NCBI RefSeq assembly: GCF_013410665.1
Contig: NZ_JACCFM010000001.1
Span: 2,294,001-2,358,000 of the forward strand
DNA from: Leifsonia psychrotolerans
GTDB lineage: Bacteria > Actinomycetota > Actinomycetes > Actinomycetales > Microbacteriaceae
Direction: 5' to 3'
DNA: 64,000 nucleotides
Shown here: positions 7,035-40,393 of the stretch, in pieces
Position numbering within the stretch: position 1 is the stretch's first letter
Layout of the letters: each line of letters begins with the position of its first letter
Position numbers and translations under genes: made by a program
Notes under the pieces: generated by a model
The model's database searches: none
Seen by the model: only the letters and a program-made list of their open reading frames with translations
What the model was told of the DNA's origin: nothing

Positions 7035-7046
7035 ATCGTATACAGT
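7035..7046. promoter_or_regulatory. ATCGTATAC motif, candidate GntR-type operator 1
   Basis: The sequence ATCGTATACAGT lies between the divergent MFS and AraC-type genes. It shares ATCGTATA with sites at 33178 and 40382. GTATAC cores are typical of operators bound by FCD-type GntR proteins (UxuR, for example). TATACA here could also serve as a -10 box for the regulator gene. Confidence 0.45.
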
Positions 7047-7080
7047 GTCGTCGCGTTCGCAGAGAGTCGAGGTGGTCCCC

Positions 7081-8097
7081 GTGAGCATCGCTCCCGATGT
7101 CCCGCAAGCCGTGTCCCGTCGCGCCGCGTCCCCGCGAATGGCCGCCGCTGCAGTGCCGGCCAACCATGTCACGACGGCCATCGCGCGCAATTTCAGCGAA
7201 TTTCGCACCGCGGTCTCGGAGTCGTTTGTTCCCCTGCACGTGACGAGTGAGCATCCGGAACCATTCTTCGGCAAGATTCGTTCGGCCTTCGTCGACGAGA
7301 TTCACGTGAGCGAAGTCAGCGCCAGCGATCACATGGTCGAGCGCACTCCCGAACTCATCGCACGCAGCACACGCCACTACTTCAAGCTCAGCCTGTTGCT
7401 CTCGGGTTCTGGCCTGCTCATTCAAGACAACCGCGAGGCGGTGTTGCAGCCGGGCGACCTGGCTGTCTACGACACCGACCGGCCGTACACTCTCGTCTTT
7501 GACGAACGGTTCAAGACCATGGTCGTCATGTTCCCGAAGCACCTGATCAACCTGCCGTCTGATGTCGTCGGCCAGCTCACCGCCGTGCGGATGTCGGGCC
7601 GCGAGGGTGTCGGCAGCATGATCGTGCCGTTCCTCGCCCAGCTTGTCGGCAACCTCGATCAGCTCACCGGCAGCACCGGAGTGCGTTTGGCACACAGCGC
7701 CCTCGACCTCGTCACAACTCTCTTTGCGAACGAGCTCGATTTGGAAAAGGGCGGTGGCTCGCCGCACCAGGCCCTCATGCAACGCGTGCGCAGCTACATC
7801 GATGCCAACCTCGCGTCGACCGACCTCGGTCCCAGTCAGATCGCGGCGGCGCATTTCATCTCGACGCGTCACCTGCACGGAATCTTTCAGGAGCAGGGCA
7901 CGACGGTGTCGACCTGGATTCGCACCCGTCGTCTCGAACGCTGCCGCCGCGACCTGATCAACCCGGTCTTCGCCGACCACCAGGTCGCCGCGATCGCAGC
8001 CCGCTGGGGCTTCGTCGATGCCGCGCACTTCAGCCGCGTGTTCAAGGCGGCCTACGGAATGGCGCCGCGCGAGTTGCGCAGCCAGAGCCTCGGCTGA
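7081..8097 (+). CDS. FeaR-like AraC-family transcriptional regulator
   Basis: From GTG at 7081 this is a 338-residue protein. About residues 100-190 form a cupin-like AraC-binding domain of the type found in FeaR and NphR (LLLSGSGLLIQDNREAVLQPGDLAVYDTDRPY). Residues 235-335 hold the double helix-turn-helix DNA-binding domain (IAAAHFISTRHLHGIFQEQG and AIAARWGFVDAAHFSRVFK). FeaR activates tyramine/phenylethylamine oxidase and phenylacetaldehyde dehydrogenase genes in Escherichia coli. The same role fits the amine oxidase 11 kb downstream, by inference. GTG 7081 follows GAGGTGG at a good distance; another GTG at 7045 would add 12 residues and overlap the ATCGTATAC site. Confidence 0.85.
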   Translation: MSIAPDVPQAVSRRAASPRMAAAAVPANHVTTAIARNFSEFRTAVSESFVPLHVTSEHPEPFFGKIRSAFVDEIHVSEVSASDHMVERTPELIARSTRHYFKLSLLLSGSGLLIQDNREAVLQPGDLAVYDTDRPYTLVFDERFKTMVVMFPKHLINLPSDVVGQLTAVRMSGREGVGSMIVPFLAQLVGNLDQLTGSTGVRLAHSALDLVTTLFANELDLEKGGGSPHQALMQRVRSYIDANLASTDLGPSQIAAAHFISTRHLHGIFQEQGTTVSTWIRTRRLERCRRDLINPVFADHQVAAIAARWGFVDAAHFSRVFKAAYGMAPRELRSQSLG

Positions 8098-8149
8098 CGC
8101 CCTTCGCCTGATTGGTGTCGCGTGTTGAGTCTCGCCTGTCCTTTCCCTC

Positions 8150-8204
8150 GAGACCGGAGTTGTTGTCGTCATAACGCACTCACAACGACAACGACTCCCG
8201 TCTC
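8150..8204. repeat. intergenic inverted repeat (hairpin) after the AraC-type gene
   Basis: Two 20-nt arms (8150-8169 and 8185-8204) are complementary apart from a few positions, with a 15-nt loop. It lies about 50 bp after the regulator stop and has no T-run. It could act as a terminator or an mRNA-stabilising hairpin. Confidence 0.55.
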
Positions 8205-8388
8205 GCGGGGTTGCGACGGTAGAGGTTCTCGAACGACGGTGAGACGGATGCCCTCTTGTCGCACTGAGCAGGTGGATTGACGGGCCGGGAACAAACGGTC
8301 GCGCGCGCTTGATCAGGCCAGAGCGCTTCAGCACGATGGCTCTACCCCCTGCACCGTCGCCGGGGCCAGAGCCGAGAGCCACCCATGA

Positions 8389-8628
8389 CATCCGTTCCCA
8401 CTCGTGCCCGGCCATGAGTTCGTCGGCGAAGTCGCCCGCATCGGCGATCGCGCTGCCACGCGCGGCGACTTCCCGTTCGCCGACCCCGTCACGCATCGGT
8501 TCGCCCTCGACGACGTTTCCGAGGCATTCGACACGATCAGCCGCCGCGAGGGCGAGGTGCTGAAGGTCGTACTCGACCCCACACTCCCCCGCCCCTCGCC
8601 CGCAGCCCCGACAGGAGCATCAGCATGA
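8389..8628 (+). pseudogene. zinc-type alcohol dehydrogenase (MDR) remnant, internally deleted
   Basis: The frame reads HPFPLVPGHEFVGEVARIGD, which is the zinc-binding GHE segment from near the N-terminus of a medium-chain dehydrogenase. After about 10 residues it passes directly into HRFALDDVSEAFDTIS...VLKVVLDP, which matches the extreme C-terminus of the same family. The middle (some 250 residues, including the Rossmann fold) is missing. An in-frame TGA at 8386 precedes the fragment, so the N-terminal part is lost too. A GTG at 8404 would still allow a 74-residue product, but it could not be an active dehydrogenase. The remnant overlaps the start of the SDR gene by 4 nt, as an intact operon partner would have done. 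Confidence 0.7.
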
Positions 8629-9266
8629 GCACGTCCCAACGATTCCGCGGCCGCGTGGCCGTGGTGACCGGCACCACGAGCAGGATTGGCCGCGGCATCG
8701 CCGAAACCCTGCAGTGCGAGGGCGCCCGGGTCTTCGGGCTCGATGTCGCCCCGGGCCGTATCGGCGAGTACGTACACTGCGATGTGCGCACCGTCGACTC
8801 GGTGCGGGCTGCCGCCGCTAACGTGCTCGCCGCCACCGACGGCCGGATCGATCATGTGGTCGCGAACGCCGGCATCCGCGGCTCGGACACTCCAGCCGAA
8901 GACCTCGACCCCGTCGAATTCGACGACGTGCTTGCGGTGATTCTGCGCGGCGTATTCCTCAGCATCCAGGCCTTCGCGAAGCCCATGCTCACCGCGGGCA
9001 GTGGAAGCATCGTCGCGATCGCCTCGATGTCAGGCACTCGGGTGGTCAATGTGCCGCAGCGCACCGTGCACTACAACACAGCGAAAGCCGGAGTCACCGC
9101 ACTGGTGCGTTTGTTGGCCGCCGAATGGGGCGGCCGCGGTGTGCGCGTGAACACGCTCTCGCCCGGCTTCGTCGCGACCCCATTTCTCGACGGCGATGTC
9201 AGCTTGCACGAGCAATGGCTGGCCGGCACCGACCTGCTCATCGATGGCGGCTATTCGCTGCGCTGA
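8625..9266 (+). CDS. short-chain dehydrogenase/reductase with an internal C-terminal deletion
   Basis: A 213-residue SDR; the family is normally about 250. The catalytic pattern is present: NAG motif (VVANAGIRG), a Ser in IASMSG, and YNTAK. Two features are abnormal. The cofactor motif reads TGTTSRIGRG, with Arg where most SDRs have the second Gly. After SPGFVATPFLDGDVSLHEQW the chain jumps to LAGTDLLIDGGYSLR, so about 35 residues that normally carry the substrate lid and the GxPEE segment are missing. The frame is otherwise intact. It may be a decaying gene, since the preceding dehydrogenase is also deleted. An original partner role in amine or alcohol oxidation is inference. Confidence 0.7.
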   Translation: MSTSQRFRGRVAVVTGTTSRIGRGIAETLQCEGARVFGLDVAPGRIGEYVHCDVRTVDSVRAAAANVLAATDGRIDHVVANAGIRGSDTPAEDLDPVEFDDVLAVILRGVFLSIQAFAKPMLTAGSGSIVAIASMSGTRVVNVPQRTVHYNTAKAGVTALVRLLAAEWGGRGVRVNTLSPGFVATPFLDGDVSLHEQWLAGTDLLIDGGYSLR

Positions 9267-9362
9267 GGCACGAATCCGCCCTCCGCCTGACAGGGATTCA
9301 GCCCCTCCCGCTTTTCCTCTCCTTTCCCCCTCTCATCACTTTTTTTCAAAGGACCGATTGCT

Positions 9363-10175
9363 ATGACCGACGCCCCCCTGACCCCCGCAACCACCGACGA
9401 CGAGGAATGGCGCACCTACGACGAGTTCGCCGCCGGCATCGACACGTTCCGACTGCCGAATCTTGCCCTGGCCGGTACGCGCCTCGGCGTCACGCTCAGT
9501 GACGGCACGACGCTCGACTTCGCCTTCGGCACGGATGCCGTGACCTGGAGCGCCGCCGGCGCGATCACCACCGCGACTGGAACACGCGACCCCTACGACG
9601 CTGTTGCCGTGCGCGATTCGGTGGTCTTCGTCAATCTGCCGCTCACCAGCATCGAAGGTGAAGCCCTCACTCTCGTCTACTCGACAGCCACCCAGCGCGT
9701 GAGCGTCGTGCACTCGGTGATCGGCGAGCAGGACTCCTCTGGCACACCGCGCGTGAAGCAGACGTTCTGGGCGGGCACGATCGATGGCCAGAGCGTTTCA
9801 GGGTCGGAGCCCGGCCCGTCACGCGACCTGATCGGCAAACGCAACCTCTACCGGTACAGCCCCGAGCACCTGTACGAGCACATCTACGTCTCAAGCCAGC
9901 GTTACGCCTGGCAATGCCTCGAGGGGGTGCAACGCGGGCACGGCGACATGGACCTTTCGACCGTCTGGAAGTTCGACGACGGACTGTACCTGTTCTGTTT
10001 CCGCGAGTTCCGCATCGCCGTGGCCAGCGTCTGGCTGCACGACCTCGGCTACGACCTGCGCACCACGGGGATCTTCCTCGGCCTGAACGGGTCCGGCGAA
10101 TCAGAGCACTCGCGGGCGGGCGGTCACATCTACCCGATCGGCTCGGTCGCCTACCCCGACGCGCAGCCCGTCTAA
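9363..10175 (+). CDS. MoaF-family protein (first copy)
   Basis: A 270-residue protein related to MoaF of the Klebsiella monoamine regulon, with a lipocalin-like N-terminal half and a MoaF C-terminal half. The diagnostic segment is YSPEHLYEHIYVSSQRYAWQ followed by CLEGVQRG. The same pattern recurs in the second copy at 21000. Database names often call this family molybdenum cofactor biosynthesis protein F, but nothing here points to Mo cofactor: there are no moaA, moaC or moaE genes. In Klebsiella the name came from the monoamine regulon. The biochemical function is unknown; binding of an aromatic amine or aldehyde is only a guess. AAAGGA lies about 9 nt before the ATG. Confidence 0.75.
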   Translation: MTDAPLTPATTDDEEWRTYDEFAAGIDTFRLPNLALAGTRLGVTLSDGTTLDFAFGTDAVTWSAAGAITTATGTRDPYDAVAVRDSVVFVNLPLTSIEGEALTLVYSTATQRVSVVHSVIGEQDSSGTPRVKQTFWAGTIDGQSVSGSEPGPSRDLIGKRNLYRYSPEHLYEHIYVSSQRYAWQCLEGVQRGHGDMDLSTVWKFDDGLYLFCFREFRIAVASVWLHDLGYDLRTTGIFLGLNGSGESEHSRAGGHIYPIGSVAYPDAQPV

Positions 10176-10190
10176 CCCGCGCTGGGTGCC

Positions 10191-10252
10191 GCGCGGGTCG
10201 AACGCAGTTGCTCGGGTTGATTTCACCGCGCGCAACTGCGCTCAACCCGCGC
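10191..10252. repeat. intergenic inverted repeat with 21-nt arms
   Basis: Arms at 10191-10211 and 10232-10252 pair at 19 of 21 positions, with a 20-nt loop. The element begins 15 bp after the MoaF stop and has no T-run. It probably ends or protects the moaF transcript before the liv operon. Confidence 0.6.
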
Positions 10253-10416
10253 AGCCGCATCCGCTGCCCCCAGACACAAGAGCTGTGCCGAAGTAAACAA
10301 TTCGGGCCATGACGCCGCTCATAGGCTCTGTAAATCCAGACACCGATTTTCGCCCGATCGAGGGCACGGTGCCACGACGAAGAGGTCGTCGTGCAACCCA
10401 TCAGACAGGGAAGCGC

Positions 10417-11598
10417 ATGAAGAAACTTATCTACACAGCAACGGCACTCGCAGCTGCGAGCGTCTTGATTCTGAGCGGATGCTCCGGGGACAGCGCCGGC
10501 GGAACCGCCGACGCGATCGTCGTCGGCTCCGTCAATGCGTTGAGCGGCCCGGCCACGTTCCCCGAAGCATCCGCTGCGGCGAAGTCCGTGTTCGACCGCG
10601 TCAACAAAGAGGGCGGCATCAACGGCCGCATGATCGAGTACAAGGTGCTCGATGACAAGGCCGACCCGGCCACCGCGAGCGCCGCAGCCCGTGAGGTCGT
10701 CGAAAGCGACAACGCCGTCGCACTCGTCGGCTCGGCCAGCCTGCTCGACTGCGAGGTCAACGCGGCCTACTACGAGCAGCAGGGCATCCTGTCGATTCAG
10801 GGCACGGGCGTCGACCAGGTGTGCTTCGACAGCCCCGCCGTCTCACCGGTCAACGTCGGCCCGTTCCTCGACACCCAGATGACTTTGACCTACGGTTCAG
10901 AGGTGCTCGGCCTCAAGAAGATCTGTGCCCTGCTCGAGATCGTCGGATCGACCGGCCCCGCCTACGCGGAGGCCATCGAAAACTGGACTGCCGCCACCGG
11001 CCAGAAGATGCACTACACCGATGACAGCGTTCCCTACGGCGGAAGCGACTACACGCCGTACATCGTCAAGGCCAAGCAAGCCGGCTGCGACGCTGTCTAC
11101 AGCAACGCCGTCGAGCCTGATGCGATCGGCCAGCTGAAAGCTGCCGAAGCTCAGGGGTGGGATGACGTCACGTTCCTCTACCTCACCAGCACCTACAGCG
11201 AGAGCTTCGCCAAGGCCGCCGGTGCAACCGGTGCCGGCGTCTACGTTCCGGCCGAGTTCGCTCCGTACACGAACGCCGACACCGAGGCCAACACGGACTG
11301 GCGTGCTCTGATGGAAGCGAACAAGATTCCGCTGACCTCGTTCGGTCAGGGCGGCTACCTTGCAGCCACCTACTTCGTCGAGGTGCTCAAGGGCATCACG
11401 GGTGACATCACCCGCGAATCCGTCAACGAGGCCCTGCACACCATGGCCCCGATCGAGAACCCGATGGTCGGAACGCCGTACGTCTTCGGCACGGCCGATC
11501 GTCACAACTCGAGCCGTGGCGGCTGGCCGATCACGCTCACGAGCGGCACCGGCGCCTGGGAGCTGGCCGCCAAGGAATGGATCATCATTCCCGAGTAG
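10417..11598 (+). CDS. liv-type ABC transporter substrate-binding lipoprotein
   Basis: A 393-residue exported binding protein of the leucine/amide/urea type (periplasmic-binding fold type I). The N-terminus MKKLIYTATALAAASVLILSGC is a lipoprotein signal with its lipobox Cys at residue 22. The mature part starts IVVGSVNALSGPATFPEASA, typical of LivK-like proteins. An upstream in-frame ATG at 10309 would prevent export, so 10417 was chosen. Ligands in this family include branched amino acids, amides and aromatic acids. With an amine oxidase and permeases nearby an amine or aromatic compound is plausible, but this cannot be read from the sequence. It is the first gene of a four-gene transporter operon. 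Confidence 0.88.
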   Translation: MKKLIYTATALAAASVLILSGCSGDSAGGTADAIVVGSVNALSGPATFPEASAAAKSVFDRVNKEGGINGRMIEYKVLDDKADPATASAAAREVVESDNAVALVGSASLLDCEVNAAYYEQQGILSIQGTGVDQVCFDSPAVSPVNVGPFLDTQMTLTYGSEVLGLKKICALLEIVGSTGPAYAEAIENWTAATGQKMHYTDDSVPYGGSDYTPYIVKAKQAGCDAVYSNAVEPDAIGQLKAAEAQGWDDVTFLYLTSTYSESFAKAAGATGAGVYVPAEFAPYTNADTEANTDWRALMEANKIPLTSFGQGGYLAATYFVEVLKGITGDITRESVNEALHTMAPIENPMVGTPYVFGTADRHNSSRGGWPITLTSGTGAWELAAKEWIIIPE

Positions 11599-11732
11599 CC
11601 CGATACCGAGCGGGCCCGCACCGGAACAGCTCTGACGTCCCGGCGGCGGCTGTCCTACTGGCAGTCGCCGCCGCGGCGGTTCACCTCGCATCACCGCTAC
11701 CGCGGAACCCGAAACCCAGAAAGGAGCGGACC

Positions 11733-12590
11733 ATGCTCCAAGGCGCACTCGCCGGCCTCGCAGCCGGTGGCCTCTACGCAATCATCGCCGTCTGCCTCAC
11801 CCTGATGGCACGCCTCGTGCGTGTCGTCAATTTCTCCCAGGTCGCCATCGGCATGTTCGGCGCGTTCAGCGCCGTCGCCTTCGCCGGACTGGGGGTGCCG
11901 ATCTGGCTGGCCACTCTGGGCGGTGTGCTTGTTGGAGCCGCCCTCTCGGCCGCTCTCGGCTGGATCATCGCGACCTGGCTCTCTGAGTCGAGCATCAACA
12001 ACCGGTCCGCCGTCACGGTCGGTTCGCTGCTCATGCTCATCGCGCTGTCCTTCCTTCTCTTCGGTACCAAGCCGCAGTCGTTCAAACCGCTGCTGGCCGG
12101 TCCGGCGTTCACCCTCGGCAACGTCGTGATCAGCCAGGTGACCGTCACCCTCGTGGTCCTGTCGATCGTCGTGGCCATCGCCGCCAAACTGATGCTGACC
12201 AAGACAACCATCGGCATCCGTCTGCGCGCCCTCTCGGAGCGCCCCACCACGGCCGAACTCATCGGCATTCCGTCGAAGCCGCTCAGCATCGCCGTCTGGG
12301 TGACGACCGGCGTGATCTGCACGATTGTCGTCAGCATCGTGGCGCCGACTCAGTCGAATGACGCCATGTCGCTGTCAATGATCATCGTGCCCGCCGCCGC
12401 TGCGGCCCTCGTGGGCGGGTTCCGCCGCCTCGACCTGGCCGTCATCGGTGGTCTCACCCTCGGCATGCTCGACGGGGCGCTCGCCCAGTTCGACCAGCTC
12501 ACGGTGCTGCGCTACTTCTTGCCGTTCCTAATTATTGTCGGACTTTTGCTGTGGACTCAGCGCAAGGAGGTGTGGGATGCTGCACGCTAA
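11733..12590 (+). CDS. livH: branched-chain-type ABC transporter permease (LivH-like)
   Basis: A 285-residue integral membrane protein with about eight hydrophobic segments. The LivH hallmark is near the N-terminus: LQGALAGLAAGGLYAIIAVC followed by LMARLVRVVNFSQVAIGMFGA. AAGGAG lies 6 nt before the ATG at 11733. The gene ends inside the next one (14-bp overlap), so translation is coupled. It should pair with the LivM domain of the following fusion protein to form the membrane channel. Confidence 0.9.
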   Translation: MLQGALAGLAAGGLYAIIAVCLTLMARLVRVVNFSQVAIGMFGAFSAVAFAGLGVPIWLATLGGVLVGAALSAALGWIIATWLSESSINNRSAVTVGSLLMLIALSFLLFGTKPQSFKPLLAGPAFTLGNVVISQVTVTLVVLSIVVAIAAKLMLTKTTIGIRLRALSERPTTAELIGIPSKPLSIAVWVTTGVICTIVVSIVAPTQSNDAMSLSMIIVPAAAAALVGGFRRLDLAVIGGLTLGMLDGALAQFDQLTVLRYFLPFLIIVGLLLWTQRKEVWDAAR

Positions 12591-15023: not shown

Positions 15024-15049
15024 TCTCTCGTCTTCGCTTCTGCTCGACT

Positions 15050-15083
15050 GGCCGGCCCTCGCGTTTCGCGGGGCCGGCCTTTC
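15050..15083 (+). terminator. intrinsic terminator of the liv operon
   Basis: A GC-rich hairpin (GGCCGGCCC plus CGCG stems with a TTT loop, right arm ending at 15079) is followed by a short T-run. It lies 27 bp after livF. Confidence 0.75.
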
Positions 15084-15229
15084 GGTAGTTGCGCAGCAGT
15101 TGACGGCGCTACGCGGATCGGAACAGTATTGGCCCCATCTCGATGGCCGAGTGTTGAGCACGTGCGAATCAAGAGCGCAACGATTTGAGCAGGGAAGCGA
15201 GCCCAAGGTTTCGCCGAGTTAAGCCGTTA

Positions 15230-15267
15230 CGGTCGAGTTACGCAGGCGTGCCAGGCGAACTCGACCG
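15230..15267. terminator. convergent-region hairpin
   Basis: CGGTCGAGTT (15230-15239) and AACTCGACCG (15258-15267) form a perfect 10-bp stem with an 18-nt loop. It lies between the liv operon and the convergent SDR operon and has no T-run. It may be a weak terminator for the minus-strand operon. Confidence 0.45.
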
Positions 15268-15300
15268 CAACGGGGAAAGTCGGCGCCCGGCGCCGGGCAG

Positions 15301-16113: not shown

Positions 16114-16128
16114 GAGACGGGTCCTGAC

Positions 16129-16185: not shown

Positions 16186-16195
16186 GCGCGGGAAT

Positions 16196-18807: not shown

Positions 18808-20823
18808 ATGTCATCTGCCGCGTACTCGCACCCGCACACCAGTACCGTCACCGAGCCGCAGGCTCCGGTGCATCCGCTCGACCCGCTGACCGGCGATGAG
18901 ATCGCCGCGGCCCGCGCAGTGCTCGTCGCGGCCGGCCTTGTCGGCGAGACCACGCGGTTCGCCTCGGTGCTGCCCGTCGACGCAAGCAAGGAATCCGTCG
19001 CGGCGTTCAAGTCCGGAGACGCGCTGGAGCGTCGCCTGCTGCTCGTGCTGCTGGATGTCGCCACCGGCCTGAGCGCGGAGGCCGTCGTCTCGGTCACCTC
19101 GGCCGAGGTCATCTCGCACACCCCGCTCAACACGACGGAGGCGCCATACGGCCAGCCGCAGTATCTGTTTGAGGAGTACGAGCGCGCCGAGGCGATCTCG
19201 AAGGCCTCCGCCTTGTGGCAGGCAGCGATGACCCGCCGCGGGCTCGCCGCGAAGATGGAACTCGCGTTCTGCGCCCCGCTCGCGCCCGGCTATTTCGGCC
19301 GTGCCGACGAGGTCGGGCGCCGCGTCATCCGTTCTCTGACGTTTCTGCGCGATTCCCCCAACGACAGCCCGTGGGCGCACCCTGTCGAGGGTCTGATCGT
19401 GCACATCGACCTCACCTCGAACCGCATCATTCGGGTCGAAGATGAGGGCGATATTCCCACGCCGACCCTGCATGGCAACTATGACGTCGCCGTCGTCGGC
19501 CCGGCCCGCACGAGCACGAAACCCATTGAGATCAGCCAGCCGCAGGGCACGAGCTTCACCGTTGACGGCTCGCACGTCGAGTGGGAGAACTGGAAATTCC
19601 GCGTGGGCTTCAACGCCCGTGAGGGTCTCGTGCTCAACCAGGTCAGCTTCCGCGACGGCGCCGAAGACCGCTCGGTGCTTTACCGGGCCAGCGTGCCCGA
19701 GATGGTCGTGCCCTACGGTGACACGACGTCGACCCGGTTCTGGATCAGCTACTTCGACGCCGGCGAGTACCTGCTCGGCAAGAACGCCAACCCGCTCGCG
19801 CTCGGCTGCGATTGCCTGGGCGTCATCCACTACTTCGACGGCTTCGTGGCCGACGACCACGGCAACCCGGTCAAGATTCCCCAGGTCGTCTGCATGCACG
19901 AAGAGGACTACGGCGTGCTCTGGAAGCACACCGATTTGAACGGGAAGGCCGAGGTGCGTCGCTCGCGCCGCCTCGTGGTGTCGTACTTCAGCACAATCGG
20001 CAACTACGACTACGGCTTCTTCTGGTACTTCTACCCGGATGGCACCATCCAGGTCGAGGCCAAGGCGACGGGCATCGTCTTCGTCGGCGCCGGGATCCCA
20101 GGCACCGACAACCCGCACGCCAACGAGATCTCCCCCGGCCTCTTCGCCCCCGTGCACCAGCACCTGTTCTGCGCGCGTCTCGACGTGGCCATCGACGGCG
20201 AAGACAACACGCTGCATGAGATCGACGTGGTCGGCATGCCGATCGGCGAGGCGAACCCTCACGGCAACGCGTTCACCTGGACCAGCACCCAGCTCTCGAC
20301 CGAGTCCGAGGCGAAGCGTCTGGCCGCCCCGGCATCCGCTCGGGTCTGGGAAGTGGCGAGCGCCTCACGTACCAACCACGTTGGCAAGCCCACCTCGTTC
20401 CACCTGCTGCCGCAGGGCGGGCCGACCCTGATGGCTCAGCCCGAGTCGACCGTGTACGGCCGGGCAACCTTCGCCACCAAGCACCTGTGGGGCACCGCCT
20501 ACGAGCCGACCGAGCTCTACCCGGCCGGCGACTACCCGAACGCGCACGCCGGTGGCGCGGGCCTGCCCGCCTGGACAGCGGCGGACCGCGACCTGGACGG
20601 CACCGACATTGTGCTCTGGCACGTGTTCGGCCCCACCCACATTCCGCGCACGGAAGACTGGCCGATCATGCCCGTCGACTACTCGGGCTTCCTGTTCAAA
20701 CCGTACGGCTTCTTCGACCGCAACCCGGCACTGGATCTGCCCGACGGACGGATGACCGAGGGCGGCTGCTGCAGCACGGATGCCACGGCCGGCTGCGGCG
20801 ACGCCTGCACCTGCGGGCACTGA
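18808..20823 (+). CDS. tynA: copper-containing primary-amine oxidase
   Basis: A 671-residue copper amine oxidase, similar in layout to the Arthrobacter phenylethylamine oxidase. It deaminates primary aryl-alkylamines to aldehydes, releasing ammonia and hydrogen peroxide. Tyr400 in TIGNYDYG is the precursor of the topaquinone cofactor. Asp317 in YFDAGEY is the expected catalytic base. Copper ligands are His450 and His452 (HQHLF) and His611 (THIPRTEDW). All residues needed for activity are present. No signal peptide is visible, so it is probably cytoplasmic. The C-terminus (about 653-671) is a Cys-rich tail with five Cys and a final His. GAAGGAA lies 7 nt before the ATG. Neighbours are MoaF and an amidohydrolase downstream and the APC/SDR operon divergently. 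Confidence 0.95.
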   Translation: MSSAAYSHPHTSTVTEPQAPVHPLDPLTGDEIAAARAVLVAAGLVGETTRFASVLPVDASKESVAAFKSGDALERRLLLVLLDVATGLSAEAVVSVTSAEVISHTPLNTTEAPYGQPQYLFEEYERAEAISKASALWQAAMTRRGLAAKMELAFCAPLAPGYFGRADEVGRRVIRSLTFLRDSPNDSPWAHPVEGLIVHIDLTSNRIIRVEDEGDIPTPTLHGNYDVAVVGPARTSTKPIEISQPQGTSFTVDGSHVEWENWKFRVGFNAREGLVLNQVSFRDGAEDRSVLYRASVPEMVVPYGDTTSTRFWISYFDAGEYLLGKNANPLALGCDCLGVIHYFDGFVADDHGNPVKIPQVVCMHEEDYGVLWKHTDLNGKAEVRRSRRLVVSYFSTIGNYDYGFFWYFYPDGTIQVEAKATGIVFVGAGIPGTDNPHANEISPGLFAPVHQHLFCARLDVAIDGEDNTLHEIDVVGMPIGEANPHGNAFTWTSTQLSTESEAKRLAAPASARVWEVASASRTNHVGKPTSFHLLPQGGPTLMAQPESTVYGRATFATKHLWGTAYEPTELYPAGDYPNAHAGGAGLPAWTAADRDLDGTDIVLWHVFGPTHIPRTEDWPIMPVDYSGFLFKPYGFFDRNPALDLPDGRMTEGGCCSTDATAGCGDACTCGH

Positions 20824-31210: not shown

Positions 31211-31256
31211 ACGGATGCCGCCGCGCCCCCGACCGGCCCCCGGCCGCCGCGGCGGC

Positions 31257-32974: not shown

Positions 32975-33097
32975 GAGTGTTCTCTCCTCTGAGTCCTCAA
33001 CGTGTGATGCGAGAGTCTCACGAAGTCCCCCGCCGCCAGCGCTTCCCCCACGGATGCTTCCCTCTGCGACAACGAGCGTGCCCACCCAGACAAGACC

Positions 33098-33135
33098 GCG
33101 GGCAGACGTTTGCCCGCGGGCAGACGTCTGCCCGC
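33098..33135. promoter_or_regulatory. two abutting 20-bp palindromes upstream of hpaH
   Basis: GCGGGCAGACGTCTGCCCGC (33116-33135) is a perfect palindrome. The copy at 33098-33117 differs by one base (GTTT for GTCT) and overlaps it by 2 bp. The tandem arrangement, with an 18-bp step, suggests a protein-binding pair or a nested hairpin in the divergent GMC/hpaH promoter region. Confidence 0.6.
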
Positions 33136-33177
33136 CGGCACGCCCGAGCACCAGCCCACGCCCCGTCAGGCACTGGC

Positions 33178-33189
33178 ATCGTATACGAT
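33178..33189. promoter_or_regulatory. ATCGTATACGAT palindrome, candidate GntR-type operator 2
   Basis: A perfect 12-bp palindrome, 37 bp before the hpaH ATG. It is the most symmetric of the three related sites (7035, 33178, 40382). Confidence 0.6.
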
Positions 33190-33225
33190 CGTTGCAGTGT
33201 CATCGACAAGGAAGTGGTGCTGATC

Positions 33226-34011
33226 ATGCTCGAGCCCAGTCAGATCGAAGAGATCGCCGACGAACTCTTCGCCGCGGATCGCTCCCGATCCACCGTCCCC
33301 CGGCTCACCGCACGCTATCCCGGGATGACGGTGGAAGACGCGTACGCCGTGCAGAGCCTGTGGAAGCAGCGCGGCATCGACGCCGGTCGCCGCCTGGTCG
33401 GCCGAAAAATCGGTCTCACCTCAAAGGTCATGCAGGTCGCAACCGGCATCACCGAACCCGACTACGGCGTGATCTTCGATGACATGGTCTACGAAAACGG
33501 CTCCACGATTCCGTTCGACTCGTTCTCGAATGTGCGCATCGAAGTCGAACTCGCCTTCGTGCTCGGCAAACCCCTTGAGGGCCCGAACTGCACGATTTTC
33601 GACGTGCTGGATGCCACGGACTACGTCGTTCCCGCACTCGAGATTCTAAGCTCCCGCATCGAGATGGCCGGTCGCACGATCGTCGACACCATCTCCGACA
33701 ACGCCGCGATGGGCGGCATGGTCTACGGCGGCAACCCGGTCAAGATCGGCGATGTGGATCTGCGCTGGGTCTCGGCTTTGCTCTATCGCAACCAGACCAT
33801 CGAGGAGTCGGGCGTCGCGGCCGCCGTGCTCAATCACCCGGCCGCCGGCGTCTACTGGCTCGCCAATAAGCTGTCCCAGCACGGCTCGCGCCTGGAGGCC
33901 GGCGAGATCATCCTGGCCGGCTCATTCACCCGCCCGATGTGGGTCGAACAGGGCGACACCATCCACGCAGACTACGGACAGTTGGGAACCATCACATGTC
34001 GCTTCGAGTAA
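33226..34011 (+). CDS. hpaH: 2-oxo-hepta-3-ene-1,7-dioate hydratase
   Basis: A 261-residue hydratase of the FAH-like 2-keto-4-pentenoate hydratase group (HpaH is usually about 267). It adds water to 2-oxohept-3-enedioate in homoprotocatechuate degradation. Conserved segments include GRKIGLTSKVMQ, a metal-binding IEVELAFVLGKPLEGP, and SDNAAMGGMVYGG. It overlaps hpaI by 16 bp, and HpaH and HpaI catalyse successive steps. The ATG at 33226 was used; a GTG at 33217, nearer to AAGGA, would add three residues. Confidence 0.92.
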   Translation: MLEPSQIEEIADELFAADRSRSTVPRLTARYPGMTVEDAYAVQSLWKQRGIDAGRRLVGRKIGLTSKVMQVATGITEPDYGVIFDDMVYENGSTIPFDSFSNVRIEVELAFVLGKPLEGPNCTIFDVLDATDYVVPALEILSSRIEMAGRTIVDTISDNAAMGGMVYGGNPVKIGDVDLRWVSALLYRNQTIEESGVAAAVLNHPAAGVYWLANKLSQHGSRLEAGEIILAGSFTRPMWVEQGDTIHADYGQLGTITCRFE

Positions 34012-34817
34012 CAGCAGAGCCGACGTTCCGCGATGCTCTCGCCACGGCATCCCGCGCCCAGATCGGCATGTGGGTCTGTTCCGGCAGCCCCCTCGTGGCG
34101 GAGATCTGCGCGGGCAGCGGCCTGGACTGGCTACTCATCGACACCGAACACAGTCCGAACGGACTCGAGTCGACGCTCAGCCAGCTGCAGGCCGTGCACG
34201 GCTACCCGATCGTGCCGCTCGTGCGGGCCCCGATCGGCGACCGCGTCATCGTCAAGCAACTGCTCGACCTCGGCGCACAGAACCTCCTCATTCCCATGAT
34301 CGACGACGCGGATGCGGCGCACGCGATGGTTGCCGCCGTGCGCTATCCGCCACTCGGGGTGCGCGGTGTCGGCAGCGCCCTGGCTCGCGCCGCACGGTGG
34401 AACCGCATCGACGACTACCTGCACAACGCCAACGCCACCATCTCGCTCTTCGTCCAGATCGAGACCGCGCTGGCCGTCGAGAATGTGGCGTCGATCGCTG
34501 CTGTCGAGGGAATCGACGGGCTGTTTATCGGACCGTCTGATCTCGCCGCATCCCTGGGCCTGCTCGGTCAGCAGGAGCATCCGGACGTCGTCGCTGCTGT
34601 CGAACACTGTATCCGGACTGTTGCAGCACTCGGCAAACCTGTCGGCGTGAATGCCTTCGCCTCGGCCACAGCCGAACGCTATCTGGCGGCTGGTGCGAAC
34701 TTCGTTCTGGTCGGCGCCGATGTCTCGCTGCTGGCCCGCGGCTCGGAGGCCTTGGCCGCGAGGTACATTCCGGCACCCGCTGTGGTCGACGAGCCGGCCG
34801 AGCGCGCCAGCTACTGA
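33996..34817 (+). CDS. hpaI: 4-hydroxy-2-oxoheptanedioate aldolase
   Basis: A 273-residue class II aldolase of the HpcH/HpaI family. It splits 4-hydroxy-2-oxoheptanedioate into pyruvate and succinic semialdehyde. The metal and active-site segments are visible: WLLIDTEHSPNG (about 39-50), YPPLGVRGVGS (about 125) and FVQIETALAVENV (about 155, with the metal Glu). The ATG lies inside the end of hpaH, so translation is coupled. A long hairpin follows the stop. The HpaI step ends the pathway before central metabolism. Confidence 0.92.
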   Translation: MSLRVTAEPTFRDALATASRAQIGMWVCSGSPLVAEICAGSGLDWLLIDTEHSPNGLESTLSQLQAVHGYPIVPLVRAPIGDRVIVKQLLDLGAQNLLIPMIDDADAAHAMVAAVRYPPLGVRGVGSALARAARWNRIDDYLHNANATISLFVQIETALAVENVASIAAVEGIDGLFIGPSDLAASLGLLGQQEHPDVVAAVEHCIRTVAALGKPVGVNAFASATAERYLAAGANFVLVGADVSLLARGSEALAARYIPAPAVVDEPAERASY

Positions 34818-34837
34818 ACCGTTGCATCGCCCCGAAA

Positions 34838-34908
34838 TGGGGGCGGCGCAGACTCACTCGCACTGTCAAACTCAGAGTTGCGTGAGTGAACTCTCGCCGT
34901 TGCCCCCA
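34838..34908. terminator. long imperfect hairpin after hpaI
   Basis: TGGGGGCGGCG and CGCCGTTGCCCCCA form the base, and ACTCACTCGCA with TGCGTGAGT forms the upper stem. There is no T-run. It probably ends the hpaHI transcript. Confidence 0.55.
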
Positions 34909-34925
34909 AACTGAAGAGAGCCTTG

Positions 34926-37067
34926 ATGCCGCGTGCCCACCGCCGTCCACAGACAACCACGGCGGGGCGGCTCACAGCCTTCACTGCGGCCGCCACTCTC
35001 TCGCTCGGTCTGCTGGGCATGGGCACCGCCGTGGCCGCACCCGCACCCGGCCCGACGCTCCTGACAAGCTCGACGGCCACCGCTGTCGCGTCGACTCTGG
35101 ACATCAGAGCGCAGACCGGGCAGTGGTCGCTCGCCTTGGGATCGATCGATGCCTCACGCAACCGGCTGTATATCGCGGTTGCGTACTCGCCGTCACAGGT
35201 TGTTCAAGTCGACCTCTCCTCGGGAGTGGCGACGTTGATCCCGCTCGGTGGCTCCTTCGCCCCGGTCGACACGGCAGTCTCCCCTCGTGACGGCACCGTC
35301 TATGTGTCCCACAACAGCGGCCACGAGCAGGGAATCTCAGTTCTTGATCCAGCGCAGACCTACACGGATGCCTCATTACCCCCGGTGATCAGCAGCGGCC
35401 TTACAGGCAATCCCTATTTGCTTGACGTCGGAAATGACGGTCGCGTGTACGCCCTGCACGTCAACCAGCACACAATTTCAGTGATTGGAGCTTCAACGAG
35501 CCCGGATCGCCTGAATGTCGTGCAGACCCTGACCGACCTCAACAGCCACGACGGCTACATGGCCATCGACAACGACCGCGACCGTCTCTATGTTGTGAGC
35601 CCCGTATCGAACACGCTCACCGTCATCGATACGAATGCGGTTCCCGCTGCCGTGCTCGGCGTCATCCCGCTCGCCACCTCGCCTGTCGGCGTCGGCGTCA
35701 ATGCTCAAACCGGGCAGGTTCTCATCACCAGCAGCGCGACGAACTCCGTGTCGTGGCTCACCGTCGCCAACGATCAGCAGTCAGCCGTCGTCACGCGCAC
35801 TGAATCACTCGTTGCACTGCCGACCGGAGCATCTTCGACATCGCAGCTGCAATCGATCAGCGTGCGCGCCGACGGAACAACCTTCGTCGTCGCGAATGTG
35901 TACCCGTCAAATCAAGTCCGCTCACAAGTCACAGTCATCCCTCCCGTAGTTTCGGCGGCGACCCCCGTCACTGGTATTACCGTCGGCTACGGCGCGAACG
36001 GCGGAATCCTCGACCCACGCGCGGGCGGCACCCTCTATGTTCCCAACGGTAGCCAGGGCACGGTCTCTGAGATCAGCGACGTCACACTCTCGGCCTACGC
36101 CACGACGTCTGAGCTTGGTTCACCGAGCAGCATGCAGGCCTCGCTGACGCGATCGGATGCCAGGAAAATCACCGGTTTCGTCGAATTCGCTGATTCCTCG
36201 ACCGCCGTGCTCGGTTCTGCTCCAGTGGACGCAGCGGGCTCAGCCAGCGTCACTCTGACCGCGCAGCCCGTCGGGTCGCGCAGCTTCACTGCATCGTTCA
36301 CTCCATTGCGCGGAACCCGTATTTCAGCCACCGGCTCAGAGACGACGACCACAGCTGCATCCACCACGGCATTCGCATTGAGTGCAGCCTCGGTCATCGA
36401 GGGCGGCTCGGCAACTGCGACGCTCACGGTGACAGGAAACGCAGGAGTCGGCGCGACAGGACCGTACACTTTCACCACCGCGGCCGGCGACGTACTCGCC
36501 TCCGGCACGCTCACCGACGGGAAGGCAACGGCAACGTTCCAGGCTCCCCCGGCAGGGACTACCTCCCTCGTCGCGCATTTCGCCGGCGATGCCAGCTACA
36601 GCGCGTCAGATTCTGAGGCCCAGAATCTCGTCGTGACAGCGCGAGTGCCCGATGCAACGACACCGACCGAATCGGGCGCTGTCGGTGGGCCCGCACGCGT
36701 TTCTGTCTCGGGGTTCCTTCCCTGGGAGGATGTCGCAGTGACGCTTCACTCCGATCCCATCTCTCTCGGAACCATCAAGACCGATGGCATCGGATCCGGC
36801 ACACTCACCTTCGTCGTTCCGACTGTGACACCGGGAAGCCACAGAATCGTCGCGGTTGGCGTGACCTCAGGGCGTGTCACCGAGGTGCCGTTCACCGTCA
36901 CCCCCGCCGTGGGCACGGGAAGCGGCTCGCCGGCAGGTGGCAGTGAATCCGCGCTGGCCAGCACAGGCTTCGAGCTCGCCGCAAACCTGTGGCTCTGCGC
37001 ATTGCTCGTGCTCGCCGGCTTCGGAACCGTCGCAGTCGCCGCGCGGCGCACCCGCAGTATTCGCTAA
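34926..37067 (+). CDS. secreted beta-propeller/Ig-like surface protein with an LAXTG sorting signal
   Basis: A 713-residue exported protein. Residues 1 to about 38 are a signal peptide (LTAFTAAATLSLGLLGMGTA ending AVAA). Residues 45-385 show YncE/lactonase-like propeller repeats (LYVVSPVSNTLTVIDTNAVP, VGVNAQTGQVLITSSATNSV). Residues 390-640 hold Ig-like repeats of the Big_3 type (ATFQAPPAGTTSLVAHFAGD). The C-terminus is a sortase signal: LASTG at about 678-682, a hydrophobic helix, then RRTRSIR. LAXTG is the motif used by class E sortases of Actinobacteria, so it should be cell-wall linked. No sortase gene is in the window. It lies between the two hpa blocks, but a catabolic role is not evident. 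An upstream TTG at 34923 is possible. Confidence 0.82.
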   Translation: MPRAHRRPQTTTAGRLTAFTAAATLSLGLLGMGTAVAAPAPGPTLLTSSTATAVASTLDIRAQTGQWSLALGSIDASRNRLYIAVAYSPSQVVQVDLSSGVATLIPLGGSFAPVDTAVSPRDGTVYVSHNSGHEQGISVLDPAQTYTDASLPPVISSGLTGNPYLLDVGNDGRVYALHVNQHTISVIGASTSPDRLNVVQTLTDLNSHDGYMAIDNDRDRLYVVSPVSNTLTVIDTNAVPAAVLGVIPLATSPVGVGVNAQTGQVLITSSATNSVSWLTVANDQQSAVVTRTESLVALPTGASSTSQLQSISVRADGTTFVVANVYPSNQVRSQVTVIPPVVSAATPVTGITVGYGANGGILDPRAGGTLYVPNGSQGTVSEISDVTLSAYATTSELGSPSSMQASLTRSDARKITGFVEFADSSTAVLGSAPVDAAGSASVTLTAQPVGSRSFTASFTPLRGTRISATGSETTTTAASTTAFALSAASVIEGGSATATLTVTGNAGVGATGPYTFTTAAGDVLASGTLTDGKATATFQAPPAGTTSLVAHFAGDASYSASDSEAQNLVVTARVPDATTPTESGAVGGPARVSVSGFLPWEDVAVTLHSDPISLGTIKTDGIGSGTLTFVVPTVTPGSHRIVAVGVTSGRVTEVPFTVTPAVGTGSGSPAGGSESALASTGFELAANLWLCALLVLAGFGTVAVAARRTRSIR

Positions 37068-37080
37068 CCCACGATCGGGA

Positions 37081-37127
37081 CGACGGGTATGCGGCCACTG
37101 ACACGAGCAGTGGTCGCACACCCGTCG
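37081..37127 (+). terminator. hairpin after the surface-protein gene
   Basis: CGACGGGT...GCGGCCACTG pairs with CAGTGGTCGC...ACCCGTCG (20-nt arms, 7-nt loop). It begins 14 bp after the stop. There is no strong T-run. Confidence 0.6.
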
Positions 37128-37283
37128 CCCCTCGGCAATGCGCCGCCGGACCCGCCCAGGGGTGCTGAAGTGACGACGACGGCACCAATCCCCTAGAGTG
37201 GTCAGGTCTGACGGCTTGGCCGTCGCGTCCGGAAAAGGGGCGCTGAGCGACATTCGCACCGATCAAGTGCATGCTTCGCGAGA

Positions 37284-37309
37284 CATATACGGAAACTCAC
37301 CGCTATATG
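37284..37309. promoter_or_regulatory. near-inverted repeat CATATACGG/CCGCTATATG upstream of the ThDP gene
   Basis: CATATACGG (37284-37292) faces CCGCTATATG (37300-37309), the latter with one extra C. It is 20-45 bp before the GTG start. It could be an operator or contain -10 elements. Confidence 0.35.
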
Positions 37310-37328
37310 ACTTGTTAAGGAACATCTC

Positions 37329-38984
37329 GTGACCTCTGTCTCGACGCGCGTCGCCGACGCCATTTCTGCCCATGTGACCGACGTCTTCGGCGTCATGGGC
37401 AACGGAAATGCCCACTTCATCAACGCGCTCTACGGCGATTCTGTTGGCCCGATCAGCTACACCGCGGTGCGCCACGAAACCGCCGCGGTCGCCGCGGCCG
37501 ACGCGTACTATCGGGCGTCGGGCCGGGTCGCCGCCGCCACCGTCACCTACGGCGCGGGCTTCACCAACATGGTCACCTCGCTCGCCGAAGCGGTGCGGGC
37601 GCAGATCCCTCTGCTCGTCGTCGCCGGTGAAGCCCCCACCAGCGGCCTGCGCGCCTGGGACATTGATCAGGTCGCACTCGCCGCCTCGGTCGGTGCGCCC
37701 ACATTCACCGTCGCCGCCGATGACGCCGGGCGCACCGTCCTCGATGCGCTCGAGCACGCCCTCAACAACCGCACCGCAGTAATCCTCGCAATTCCCTACG
37801 ACCTCGCAGCGGCCGATGCCGCCGACGAGACGCTGCCGACCGAACTGAGCCTGACCGCCCCGGTCGCCGCGGATTCCACCGCAACGGATGCCGCGGCATC
37901 CGTTCTCGCGGGAGCCGAGCGCCCGTTCATCTTGGCCGGCCGCGGCGCCTGGGATGCCGGCGCCGCCGACGCCCTCGGCGCCCTCGCCGATGCGCTCGGT
38001 GCCGTCACGGCCACGTCGGCACTCGGCCGGGGCATCTTCCCGAAGCAGCAGTTCGACCTCGGAGTCACCGGCGGATTCGGCCAGGACAACGCCATGGCAC
38101 TCGTCAAGACCGCCGACGTCGTGCTCGTGGTCGGCGCCAGCATGAACCAGTTCACGATGAGCTTTGGCGGCCTCATCGCACCGGGCACGACGCTCATCCG
38201 CATCGATGACGTCGCCTCGGCCGCGCACCCTGCCGTGATCAGCCTGCTCGTGGGCGACGCCCGCCTCACGGTGGAAGCGCTGACTTCGAGCCTGGCGGCC
38301 TCGGGCGCAACGGCATCCGGCTGGCGTGAATCGTTGCCGGGCCTCACCGAGGGCGCATTCCGCACCCGAGATGCCGGCGAGGCGAACCTGCCCGACGGCC
38401 TGCTCGACCCGCGCCGGGTTGCCGCCCGCTTGGCCGAGCTGCTGCCCGACGACCGCCTGGTCGTCTCCGACGGCGGTCACTTCATCGGTTGGGCCAACAC
38501 CTATTGGCCGGTTGCCGCTCCCAACCGCATGATGATGGTCGGCACGGCATTCCAGAGCATCGGCCTCGGTTTCCCGAGCGCTGTGGGCGCGACGGTCGCC
38601 CTGCCGGAGCCCCTGCTCGTGGTCACGACGGGCGACGGCGGCGGGCTGATGGCCCTCGCCGATTTGGACAGTGTCATCCGCACCACCCGTCGCGGCGTGA
38701 TCGTGGTCTGGAACGACGCGGCCTACGGCGCCGAGGTACACATGTACGGCCTGATGGGCCTCGACACGCGCCCGATGCTCATCGAGCAGGCCGACTTCGC
38801 CGCACTCTCGCGGGCCCTCGGCGGACGCGGCGATGTGATCGACACGCTCGACGACCTTGCGTCGTTCGAACAGTGGTTGGCGGATGGCGCCGACGGCGTG
38901 TACCTGCTGGATTGCCGCATCTCGAGCAGCATCATGGCGCCGTACCAGAAAGAGATCTACGCCTTCGCGACGGGCCAGCACTAG
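37329..38984 (+). CDS. thiamine diphosphate-dependent decarboxylase/synthase-like enzyme
   Basis: A 551-residue member of the acetolactate synthase/benzoylformate decarboxylase superfamily. The N-terminal Pyr domain carries the catalytic Glu in YTAVRHETAA (about residue 50). A central domain follows (about 185-330). The C-terminal ThDP/Mg motif begins GDGGGLMALADLDS and ends VVWNDAAYG. Which 2-oxo acid it uses cannot be told from sequence. Its position between the hpa blocks makes an aryl-pyruvate decarboxylase or a related carboligase possible. Translation starts at GTG 37329, after AAGGA. It is followed by a repeat-rich gap. Confidence 0.82.
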   Translation: MTSVSTRVADAISAHVTDVFGVMGNGNAHFINALYGDSVGPISYTAVRHETAAVAAADAYYRASGRVAAATVTYGAGFTNMVTSLAEAVRAQIPLLVVAGEAPTSGLRAWDIDQVALAASVGAPTFTVAADDAGRTVLDALEHALNNRTAVILAIPYDLAAADAADETLPTELSLTAPVAADSTATDAAASVLAGAERPFILAGRGAWDAGAADALGALADALGAVTATSALGRGIFPKQQFDLGVTGGFGQDNAMALVKTADVVLVVGASMNQFTMSFGGLIAPGTTLIRIDDVASAAHPAVISLLVGDARLTVEALTSSLAASGATASGWRESLPGLTEGAFRTRDAGEANLPDGLLDPRRVAARLAELLPDDRLVVSDGGHFIGWANTYWPVAAPNRMMMVGTAFQSIGLGFPSAVGATVALPEPLLVVTTGDGGGLMALADLDSVIRTTRRGVIVVWNDAAYGAEVHMYGLMGLDTRPMLIEQADFAALSRALGGRGDVIDTLDDLASFEQWLADGADGVYLLDCRISSSIMAPYQKEIYAFATGQH

Positions 38985-39031
38985 CTCGTCGGTCGAGCCC
39001 CACCGCTGGTCGCCCCACCGCTGGTCGAGCC

Positions 39032-39247
39032 CGTCGAGACCCTCCAACGACGTCCCGACGCTGGCTCACGAGATCTCGACACGCTCGATCAACGGGTTCC
39101 GCTCGATCAACGGGTTCCGCTCGATCAGCGGGTTCCGCTCGATCAGCCGGATGCGCAAGAGCCCCCCACCGTCGGTCGAGCTCGTCGAGACCCTCCAACG
39201 ACGTCCCGACGCTGGCTCACGAGATCTCGACACGCTCGATCAACGGG
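39032..39247. repeat. two 65-bp direct repeats flanking four tandem 18-bp repeats
   Basis: A 65-bp sequence (39032-39096) starting CGTCGAGACCCTCCAACGA is repeated almost exactly at 39183-39247. Between them, GCTCGATCAACGGGTTCC occurs twice (39083-39118), followed by two diverged 18-bp copies to 39154. The units contain the GGTCGAG/TCTCGACACGCTCGA palindrome seen elsewhere. Together they fill the 319-bp gap between the ThDP enzyme and the aldo/keto reductase. No gene is present. Confidence 0.85.
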
Positions 39248-39303
39248 GTTCGCACGACCTGCGGGGTTCGCACGATCAACGGTGGGGCTTGAACCGCCGC
39301 CCG

Positions 39304-40308
39304 CTACGCGACCCGAGTCGCCGGGCTCTCCGTCAACGCCGGGTCGCGCACAACAACCGCGCCGAGCGCCGCGTCGATCTCTGCCATCTGCTCGGCCGGA
39401 ATCCGTACTCCACCGGCGGCGACGTTTTCGGTGATCTGCTCCGGCCGTGATGCTCCGACGAGCGCGGCCGAAATGTTGTCGTTTTGCAGCACCCACGCAA
39501 TCGCGAGTTGCGACATCTTCAACCCGAGCTCGTCGGCGATCGGTCGCAGCCTCTGCACCGCGGTCAGAACAGGCTCTTCCATCAGCCGCGAGATGAAGTT
39601 CTTGCCGCCCTTTTCGTCGGTGGCGCGACTTCCTTCCGGGGCCGGCTGGCCGGGCTGATACTTGCCCGACAGCACGCCCTGAGCCATCGGCGACCAGACG
39701 ATCTGCGAGATGCCGAGTTCCTTCGACGCCGGAATCACCTCGACTTCGATCACCCGCCACAGCGCCGAATATTGGGGCTGATTCGACACGATTGAGAACC
39801 CCGCCTGTTTGGCCAGCGCCTGGCCGGCCCGCAACTGCTCGGCGTTCCACTCCGACACTCCGATGTAGAGGGCCTTGCCCGAGCGCACGACATCCGCAAA
39901 GGCCTGAATTGTCTCTTCAAGCGGAGTGTGGTGGTCATAGCGGTGCGCCTGATACAGGTCGACGTAATCCATCTGAAGTCGGCGCAACGAGCCGTTGATG
40001 CCCTCCATGATGTGCTTGCGTGAGAGCCCGGTGTCGTTGGGGCCCGCGGGGCCAATCGGCCAATACACCTTGGTGAAAATCTCAAGAGATTCCCGGCGCT
40101 CGCCGGTCAACGCCGCACCGAGCACCTCCTCTGCAGCGCCATTGGCATAGGCATCGGCGGTATCAAATGTGCTGATTCCGCTCTCCAGGGCGGCTCTGAC
40201 GCACGCGGTTGCCGTGTCGCTCTCCACCTGAGAGCCGTGAGTGAGCCAGTTGCCGTAGGTGATTTCAGATATTTTGAGGCCCGAAGCGCCCAAGAAGCGA
40301 TAGTCCAT
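39304..40308 (-). CDS. aldo/keto reductase
   Basis: A 334-residue NADPH-dependent aldo/keto reductase of the Kv-beta/YghZ-like class. It has the N-terminal FLGASGLKISEITYGNW, active-site Asp and Tyr in FDTADAYANG, active-site Lys in FTKVYWPIG, catalytic His in LYQAHRYD, and the C-terminal NADP-binding segment ALVGASRPEQI. All four catalytic residues are present. It is divergent from the hpaG-gntR-hpaE-hpaD operon, and the gap holds an ATCGTATA motif, so it may be co-regulated. It might reduce an aldehyde intermediate such as succinic semialdehyde, but this is a guess. GGGGAG lies 1 nt before the ATG, unusually close. Confidence 0.9.
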   Translation of the reverse strand: MDYRFLGASGLKISEITYGNWLTHGSQVESDTATACVRAALESGISTFDTADAYANGAAEEVLGAALTGERRESLEIFTKVYWPIGPAGPNDTGLSRKHIMEGINGSLRRLQMDYVDLYQAHRYDHHTPLEETIQAFADVVRSGKALYIGVSEWNAEQLRAGQALAKQAGFSIVSNQPQYSALWRVIEVEVIPASKELGISQIVWSPMAQGVLSGKYQPGQPAPEGSRATDEKGGKNFISRLMEEPVLTAVQRLRPIADELGLKMSQLAIAWVLQNDNISAALVGASRPEQITENVAAGGVRIPAEQMAEIDAALGAVVVRDPALTESPATRVA

Positions 40309-40381
40309 ACTCCCCAGCCTACGAAGATGAGCGCGGCCTGTCCCGGGTGGGACGCATACTCACAGTTGCGCCGCCGAGTGG

Positions 40382-40393
40382 ATCGTATATTAT
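40382..40393. promoter_or_regulatory. ATCGTATATTAT motif, candidate GntR-type operator 3
   Basis: It shares ATCGTATA with the sites at 7035 and 33178. It lies 30 bp before the hpaG start, in the gap to the divergent aldo/keto reductase. TATATT may also be the -10 box. Confidence 0.5.

Follow-up and report, generated by a model that had tools for sequence, protein, structure and literature searches.

A conserved palindrome marks predicted operators of a proposed FCD-type GntR autorepressor of homoprotocatechuate genes in Leifsonia psychrotolerans

Three 12-bp sites of related sequence lie in promoter regions of a 64,000-nucleotide stretch of the 3.82-Mb Leifsonia psychrotolerans genome (contig NZ_JACCFM010000001.1, bases 2294001-2358000; hereafter the window), at positions 7035, 33178 and 40382, where an original prediction made from the letters of the window alone had placed them. 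Judging from sequence comparisons, we consider it probable (about 0.8) that the FCD-type GntR protein of the hpaG-gntR-hpaE-hpaD operon uses these sites as operators. It would be an autorepressor controlling ring cleavage, a FeaR-like activator and transport. What the genomes show directly is that the sites exist, are conserved, go together with gntR and, at hpaG, overlap a predicted promoter. The proposed regulon, which would belong with those of the FCD-type GntR regulators, is well supported by comparative genomics.

The perfect palindrome ATCGTATACGAT (33178-33189) is located 36 bases before the ATG of hpaH (33226-34011, forward strand), and ATCGTATATTAT (40382-40393) 29 bases before the ATG of hpaG (40423-41958, forward strand). 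The third predicted operator, ATCGTATACAGT (7035-7046), is 34 bases before the likely GTG start of a gene for a FeaR-like AraC-family regulator (7081-8097, forward strand), with a major facilitator superfamily (MFS) transporter gene (5467-6918, reverse strand) on its opposite side. Given distances of 29, 36 and 34 bases to the hpaG, hpaH and feaR-like starts, the sites fit these three genes better than they fit the genes for a GMC oxidoreductase and an aldo-keto reductase on the divergent side. The motif ATCGTATA matches four times in the window (the palindrome being counted twice) against 0.04 expected, and none of 100 shuffles reaches four. Genome-wide there are 13 matches at 12 places, four of which fall within 41 kb (P about 0.002 for 12 random places); in answer to a check set by the original prediction, matches concentrate before hpa and amine genes. 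The remaining eight places comprise six inside called open reading frames (ORFs) and two outside, of which one (L022) lies between called ORFs. The other is an unlinked ATCGTATATTTT at L025 1501-1512 (genome 3520039), which precedes an ORF without assigned function by 27 bases.

A fourth predicted operator, TTCGTATACGAT, was found blind. A genome scan allowing at most one mismatch to ATCGTATACGAT gives two places, window 33178 and genome C1:2293423-2293434, the latter corresponding to window positions -577 to -566, just outside the window on its left. A likely ATG stands 11 bases further on, at the start of a gene for succinate-semialdehyde dehydrogenase (SSADH; L016:7948-9411, reverse strand; TIGR01780 6.4e-169, below the strict cut-off); the automatic call, by taking the first possible start, an upstream TTG, put the site inside the gene. 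SSADH acts on the end product expected of the pathway, and this find counts in favour of the GntR protein as binder. With a matrix built from the hpaG and hpaH sites of relatives, the four sites are the top matches in 86 kb, scoring 24.9, 20.8, 19.0 and 11.2 bits, where 20 Markov sequences lead one to expect 0, 0, 0 and 0.3 matches; the next real match scores 9.1 bits.

Comparisons with related genomes show that the site is conserved before hpaG and hpaH, in the same family (Microbacteriaceae) and in others, in keeping with the original prediction. We sampled 40 loci from the same family and 80 from Leifsonia, Agromyces, Cryobacterium, Leucobacter, Isoptericola, Amycolatopsis and others; since these 120 loci include some genomes twice, and identity limits were set per gene, all gene counts given here are deduplicated. 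In the same-family loci the site precedes most hpaG and hpaH genes across many gene orders. Overall it is present upstream of 94 of 107 hpaG and 58 of 67 hpaH genes in head position, and 173 of the 201 sites in 2.34 Mb fall within -300 to +30 of a start among 15 query genes; the reversed motif has no match in the same 2.34 Mb. When all 8-mers are counted, with no motif chosen, ATCGTATA is the commonest upstream of hpaG (102/107 regions) and hpaH (61/67). High 8-mer counts also occur before hpaD (37/38), whose upstream stretch is mostly coding. Control genes have the site almost nowhere: hpaD at 0/38 heads and 0/67 internal copies, hpaE at 1/85 and 0/20, gntR at 1/22 and 0/86 and internal hpaI at 0/80. 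For the APC permease the count is 0/10.

Presence of the site also tracks that of the GntR gene. Taking identity of at least 54% to define a close orthologue (nine weaker matches being scored as absence), 91 of 249 sampled genomes of the family have one, and the regulator occurs in other families of the order as well. The strict pattern ATCGTATAYNAT is found in 77 of these 91 genomes and in 4 of the 158 without; two of these four (G233 and G062) have GntR matches below 54%. In the other families, for which 65 of 86 genomes with GntR and 14 of 280 without were examined, plus G151, the pattern is found in 43/65 and 1/14 respectively. Names were listed for 16 of the genomes without GntR outside the family. 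By family, it is present in 20/29 (f6), 10/12 (f7), 4/6 (f9), 4/7 (f12), 4/4 (f14) and 1/2 (f10) genomes with GntR, and in 0/3 (f15), 0/1 (f8) and 0/1 (f16). The distance from site to gntR is 1491-1690 bp in 42 of the 43 positive genomes, about one hpaG length, and hpaG is present in all seven loci of these families inspected for gene content (L334-L339 and L345). A natural loss points the same way. Among genomes bearing HpaD (identity 65% or more; G011 and G093, at 37-38%, were removed), 91 of 92 have a close GntR; the exception, G151, carries the genes hpaH-hpaI-hpaG-hpaE-hpaD but no gntR, and its hpaG and hpaH both lack an upstream site. Conservation in relatives, tracking of the GntR gene and this loss together support the single GntR regulon originally proposed.

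The GntR protein itself (41958-42695, forward strand), which the original prediction correctly described as an FCD-type regulator within the hpa operon, has an N-terminal GntR helix-turn-helix (Pfam PF00392, 44.3 bits against a cut-off of 27; 1.4e-11) and a C-terminal FCD domain (PF07729, 67.3 bits against 24.3; 2.3e-18). Its AlphaFold model (mean predicted local distance difference test score, pLDDT, 81.7) has six C-terminal helices, and a Foldseek search with this model gives VanR Atu1419 and other GntR regulators as top matches, with a best E of about 4e-9 and whole-chain TM-scores near 0.5. Four residues, Asn129, His133, His178 and His201, are invariant in 20 orthologues and may be metal ligands of the FCD domain. 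The helix-turn-helix, the FCD domain and a palindrome with GT..AC are shared with the FadR-subfamily (FCD) regulons of UxuR/ExuR, LldR and VanR, from which the present system differs in its pathway, homoprotocatechuate meta-cleavage, and in its operator word ATCGTATACGAT. PMC4494728 gives NyGTM-N0-1-KACNy as the operator consensus of the FadR subfamily, which the GTATAC core of the sites fits, with a GT-AC distance of 2 where 3 is typical. The operator word was not found in the literature searched, and searches made largely at listing level found no description of a GntR regulator of homoprotocatechuate genes. In E. coli, the 4-hydroxyphenylacetate/homoprotocatechuate meta pathway is controlled by HpaR, a MarR-family protein and the single repressor of the hpa operon; the proposed system is alike in having a single repressor of the meta pathway, but the regulator here is of an unrelated family, an FCD-type GntR encoded inside the operon.

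The site at hpaG coincides with a predicted promoter. By eye, its right half TATTAT (40388-40393) can double as a -10 box, for which TTGCGC (40366-40371), at a spacing of 16 bp upstream, would serve as the -35. Site positions 7-12 read TANNNT in 103/103 hpaG rows, which follows from the motif definition. A -35-like hexamer that begins with TT, with a spacer of 16-18 bp, is found in 75 of these 103 rows, compared with 14 and 9 for shifted controls. At position 9, 68/103 hpaG rows have T, but hpaH, where the full palindrome is kept with both flanks, has C in 95%, as if the hpaG site were a compromise between operator and -10 box. The original prediction had allowed that TATA in each site might belong to a -10 box; the right half of the hpaG site fits this, and the ATCG flank, as was also said, is not a promoter element. 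Directly 3' of the hpaG operator is a block TTSARATAY (here TTGAGATAA, 40394-40402, forward strand), well conserved after hpaG operators and absent at hpaH. Forward half-site scores peak at this block, one reverse-strand offset (16) being also high. A second palindrome spanning operator and block was rejected, complementary changes at paired columns being near shuffled levels, and because of this failed covariation test we prefer to read the block as a weak additional half-site placed 12 bp, or one step, further downstream. Similar weaker boxes, 7-12 nt from the centre of GntR operators, are described in PMC4494728; the present one is found at hpaG and not at hpaH. Tandem perfect operators stand before hpaG at L334 1582-1606 and L335 2231-2264, 13 and 22 bp apart. 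An operator lying over a predicted promoter, together with the half-site and tandem sites, favours repression by covering of the promoter, possibly by more than one dimer.

A further tandem pair of perfect operators, 23 bp apart (L336 6337-6371), lies between another gene and the gene for a thiamine pyrophosphate (TPP)-dependent enzyme. The window has a TPP-dependent enzyme gene between hpaHI and hpaG (37329-38984), without a site; homologues of 54-55% identity have upstream sites in G550 (two) and G491.

The original prediction extended the repressor's reach from ring cleavage to transport and to an activator of amine oxidation, and the MFS and feaR-like genes are recurrent targets. The MFS gene, 51-80% identical to MFS genes near hpaG or hpaH in relatives, is preceded by a site in 16 of 30 cases. 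Of the best 30 feaR homologues (a set that includes our own), 17 are preceded by a site at no more than 400 bp, and the exact ATCGTATACAGT variant also stands before those of G156, G046, G094, G117 and G172; feaR sites are found in other families too (G584 and G500). Four genomes of genus g64 have an MFS/feaR pair arranged as in L. psychrotolerans with the site between, and 46 of the 47 genomes with a feaR match at 1e-60 have a close GntR. Copies of feaR inside hpa loci, on the other hand, have no site (0/3 heads, 0/5 internal). Six of 12 distant sites fetched from the family lie before MFS, feaR or SSADH genes; SSADH sites are found in G174 and G049. In other families, an ORF of unrelated kind contains a site of G423 (C18), and the second of the G385 sites also falls within a called ORF. 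As for the divergent partners named in the original prediction, hpaG, hpaH, the feaR-like gene and the MFS gene stand as predicted targets, and two others were rejected: the GMC oxidoreductase, with a site at 2/13, and the aldo-keto reductase, none of whose homologues entered the 120-locus tally. SSADH was likewise rejected as a core member, since the site is present at our own copy alone among the best 30 and at 4/15 copies in hpa loci, all 127-178 bp from the start and perhaps belonging to neighbours.

Several observations weigh against GntR control of all these sites. The matrix score is weakest at the feaR-like site of L. psychrotolerans itself, 13 of the best 30 feaR homologues have no site, including three of its own genus (G078, G193 and G239), and the feaR site of G156 stands in a genome that lacks a close GntR. 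The SSADH genes of G230 and G129, 89% identical to ours, lack the site, though both genomes have the GntR; and, as noted, none of the best 30 SSADH genes other than our own has it. Six of the 12 distant family sites are elsewhere (G193, G226, G024, G233, G044 and G151), one of them inside a ribosomal protein gene recognised by eye. The strict pattern is missing in 14 of the 91 GntR-bearing genomes of the family, several of which have near variants, and in 22 of the 65 of other families, and loci L074 and L084 have no site within two mismatches. G151, which retains one exact match on another contig and a two-mismatch match inside hpaH, is alone in separating regulator from pathway, given their co-occurrence in 91 of 92 genomes. 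The relatives are also phylogenetically dependent, so that the counts are not independent trials. Lastly, the sites have TCGT/ACGA and do not match the narrower boxes, TKGT/ACMA, that are common in the subfamily according to PMC4494728.

These points bear on three alternatives. Another regulator (the FeaR-like protein, for instance, or one whose gene is unlinked) could bind the sites and co-occur with the hpa cluster by chance; co-occurrence alone cannot name the binder when GntR and the hpa genes are so seldom found apart, and the feaR-linked site of G156 would be accommodated. We regard this as improbable, since 35 of the 77 site-bearing genomes have no feaR match at 1e-60, which makes FeaR unlikely as the binder, several families, and Amycolatopsis too, keep the site at the promoter of the operon that contains gntR, its GTATAC core agrees with the FadR-subfamily consensus, and G151 is without both gntR and the hpa sites. 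That the sites are nothing but AT-rich -10 elements of ordinary promoters would explain the TANNNT fit at hpaG, built in as it is, and the -35-like hexamers upstream, but is hardly credible given the 12 ATCGTATA places in 3.8 Mb, the two-flanked palindrome kept at hpaH and the tracking of gntR.

GntR might also bind and activate, or repress some promoters and activate others. Regulators encoded inside their own operon often autorepress, and the hpaG site covers the predicted -10 box, a repressor position; both argue against activation, which we consider unlikely. In its favour, some sites are 60-178 bp from the start codon, and PMC6608401 describes GntR proteins that act as activators when bound upstream.

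Under autorepression by GntR, a dimer would bind the 12-bp palindrome ATCGTATACGAT and repress its own operon hpaG-gntR-hpaE-hpaD, hpaHI, the hpa-linked SSADH gene and the promoter region between the divergent MFS and feaR-like genes. It would do so by masking the -10 region, as its placement at hpaG suggests, and by extension at the other promoters. The effector releasing it would be an acid of the pathway, with 3,4-dihydroxyphenylacetate or a product of ring cleavage as the likeliest candidates, and derepression would open uptake, ring cleavage and the FeaR-like activator, which would in turn switch on amine oxidation; binding, dimer formation, repression, effector and the targets of FeaR are what we infer here. 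One repressor would then stand above both halves of a tyramine/catecholamine-type pathway. Whether this amounts to a two-tier switch across several actinobacterial families, of which our searches turned up no description, is evenly balanced: an FCD GntR autorepressor over ring cleavage and, via the FeaR-like activator, over substrate-forming amine oxidation, with an operator that doubles as the -10 box of the repressor's promoter, a phased half-site, and SSADH, TPP-dependent enzyme and MFS genes that join or leave by lineage. The analysis offers a likely function, operator and target list for the GntR regulator of 91/249 genomes of the family and of other families, and would place amine oxidation and ring cleavage under a common switch; binding and effector should be accessible with a few promoter fragments.

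The genes around the sites are consistent with a homoprotocatechuate meta-cleavage set, as judged from profile matches. hpaE (5-carboxymethyl-2-hydroxymuconate semialdehyde dehydrogenase, 42781-44277; TIGR02299, scanned from 42616), hpaD (3,4-dihydroxyphenylacetate 2,3-dioxygenase, 44347-45462; TIGR02295, scanned from 44311) and hpaH (2-oxo-hept-4-ene-1,7-dioate hydratase; TIGR02312) are above their cut-offs, whereas hpaI (4-hydroxy-2-oxoheptanedioate aldolase, 33996-34817; scanned from 33939) scores 324.7 bits against a TIGR02311 cut-off of 368.8; all are on the forward strand, with starts of hpaE, hpaD and hpaI placed by eye. The hpaG-like gene encodes a two-domain fumarylacetoacetate-hydrolase/RraA fusion, above cut-off for PRK12764 and below it for the HpaG domain models. 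Although ring-cleavage genes are present, the whole genome has no match at E 0.001 to PF03241, the HpaB-type 4-hydroxyphenylacetate hydroxylase, and for this reason the pathway is likely to be entered at 3,4-dihydroxyphenylacetate, which may be supplied, for example, by catecholamine oxidation.

In E. coli, FeaR activates tynA and feaB. The FeaR-like protein resembles it in being of the AraC family and similar to the NCBIfam FeaR model (PRK09685), and the window also contains a gene for a primary-amine oxidase (18808-20823, forward strand; PRK11504, above cut-off). The protein differs from FeaR in scoring below the FeaR cut-off (166.5 against 199 bits) and in the predicted control of its own gene by GntR. 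The amine oxidase gene has no site of its own (best upstream matrix score -3.0) and may be the kind of gene that the FeaR-like activator serves.

A second SSADH gene in the genome (C1:1073793-1075238), 80% identical to the hpa-linked copy, has no place within two mismatches of the motif near it. Between the GMC gene and hpaH, at window positions 33100-33133, are two tandem palindromes, GGGCAGACGTTTGCCC and GGGCAGACGTCTGCCC, whose places are the sole genome positions at one mismatch or fewer; they might represent a further operator or an element resembling a terminator.

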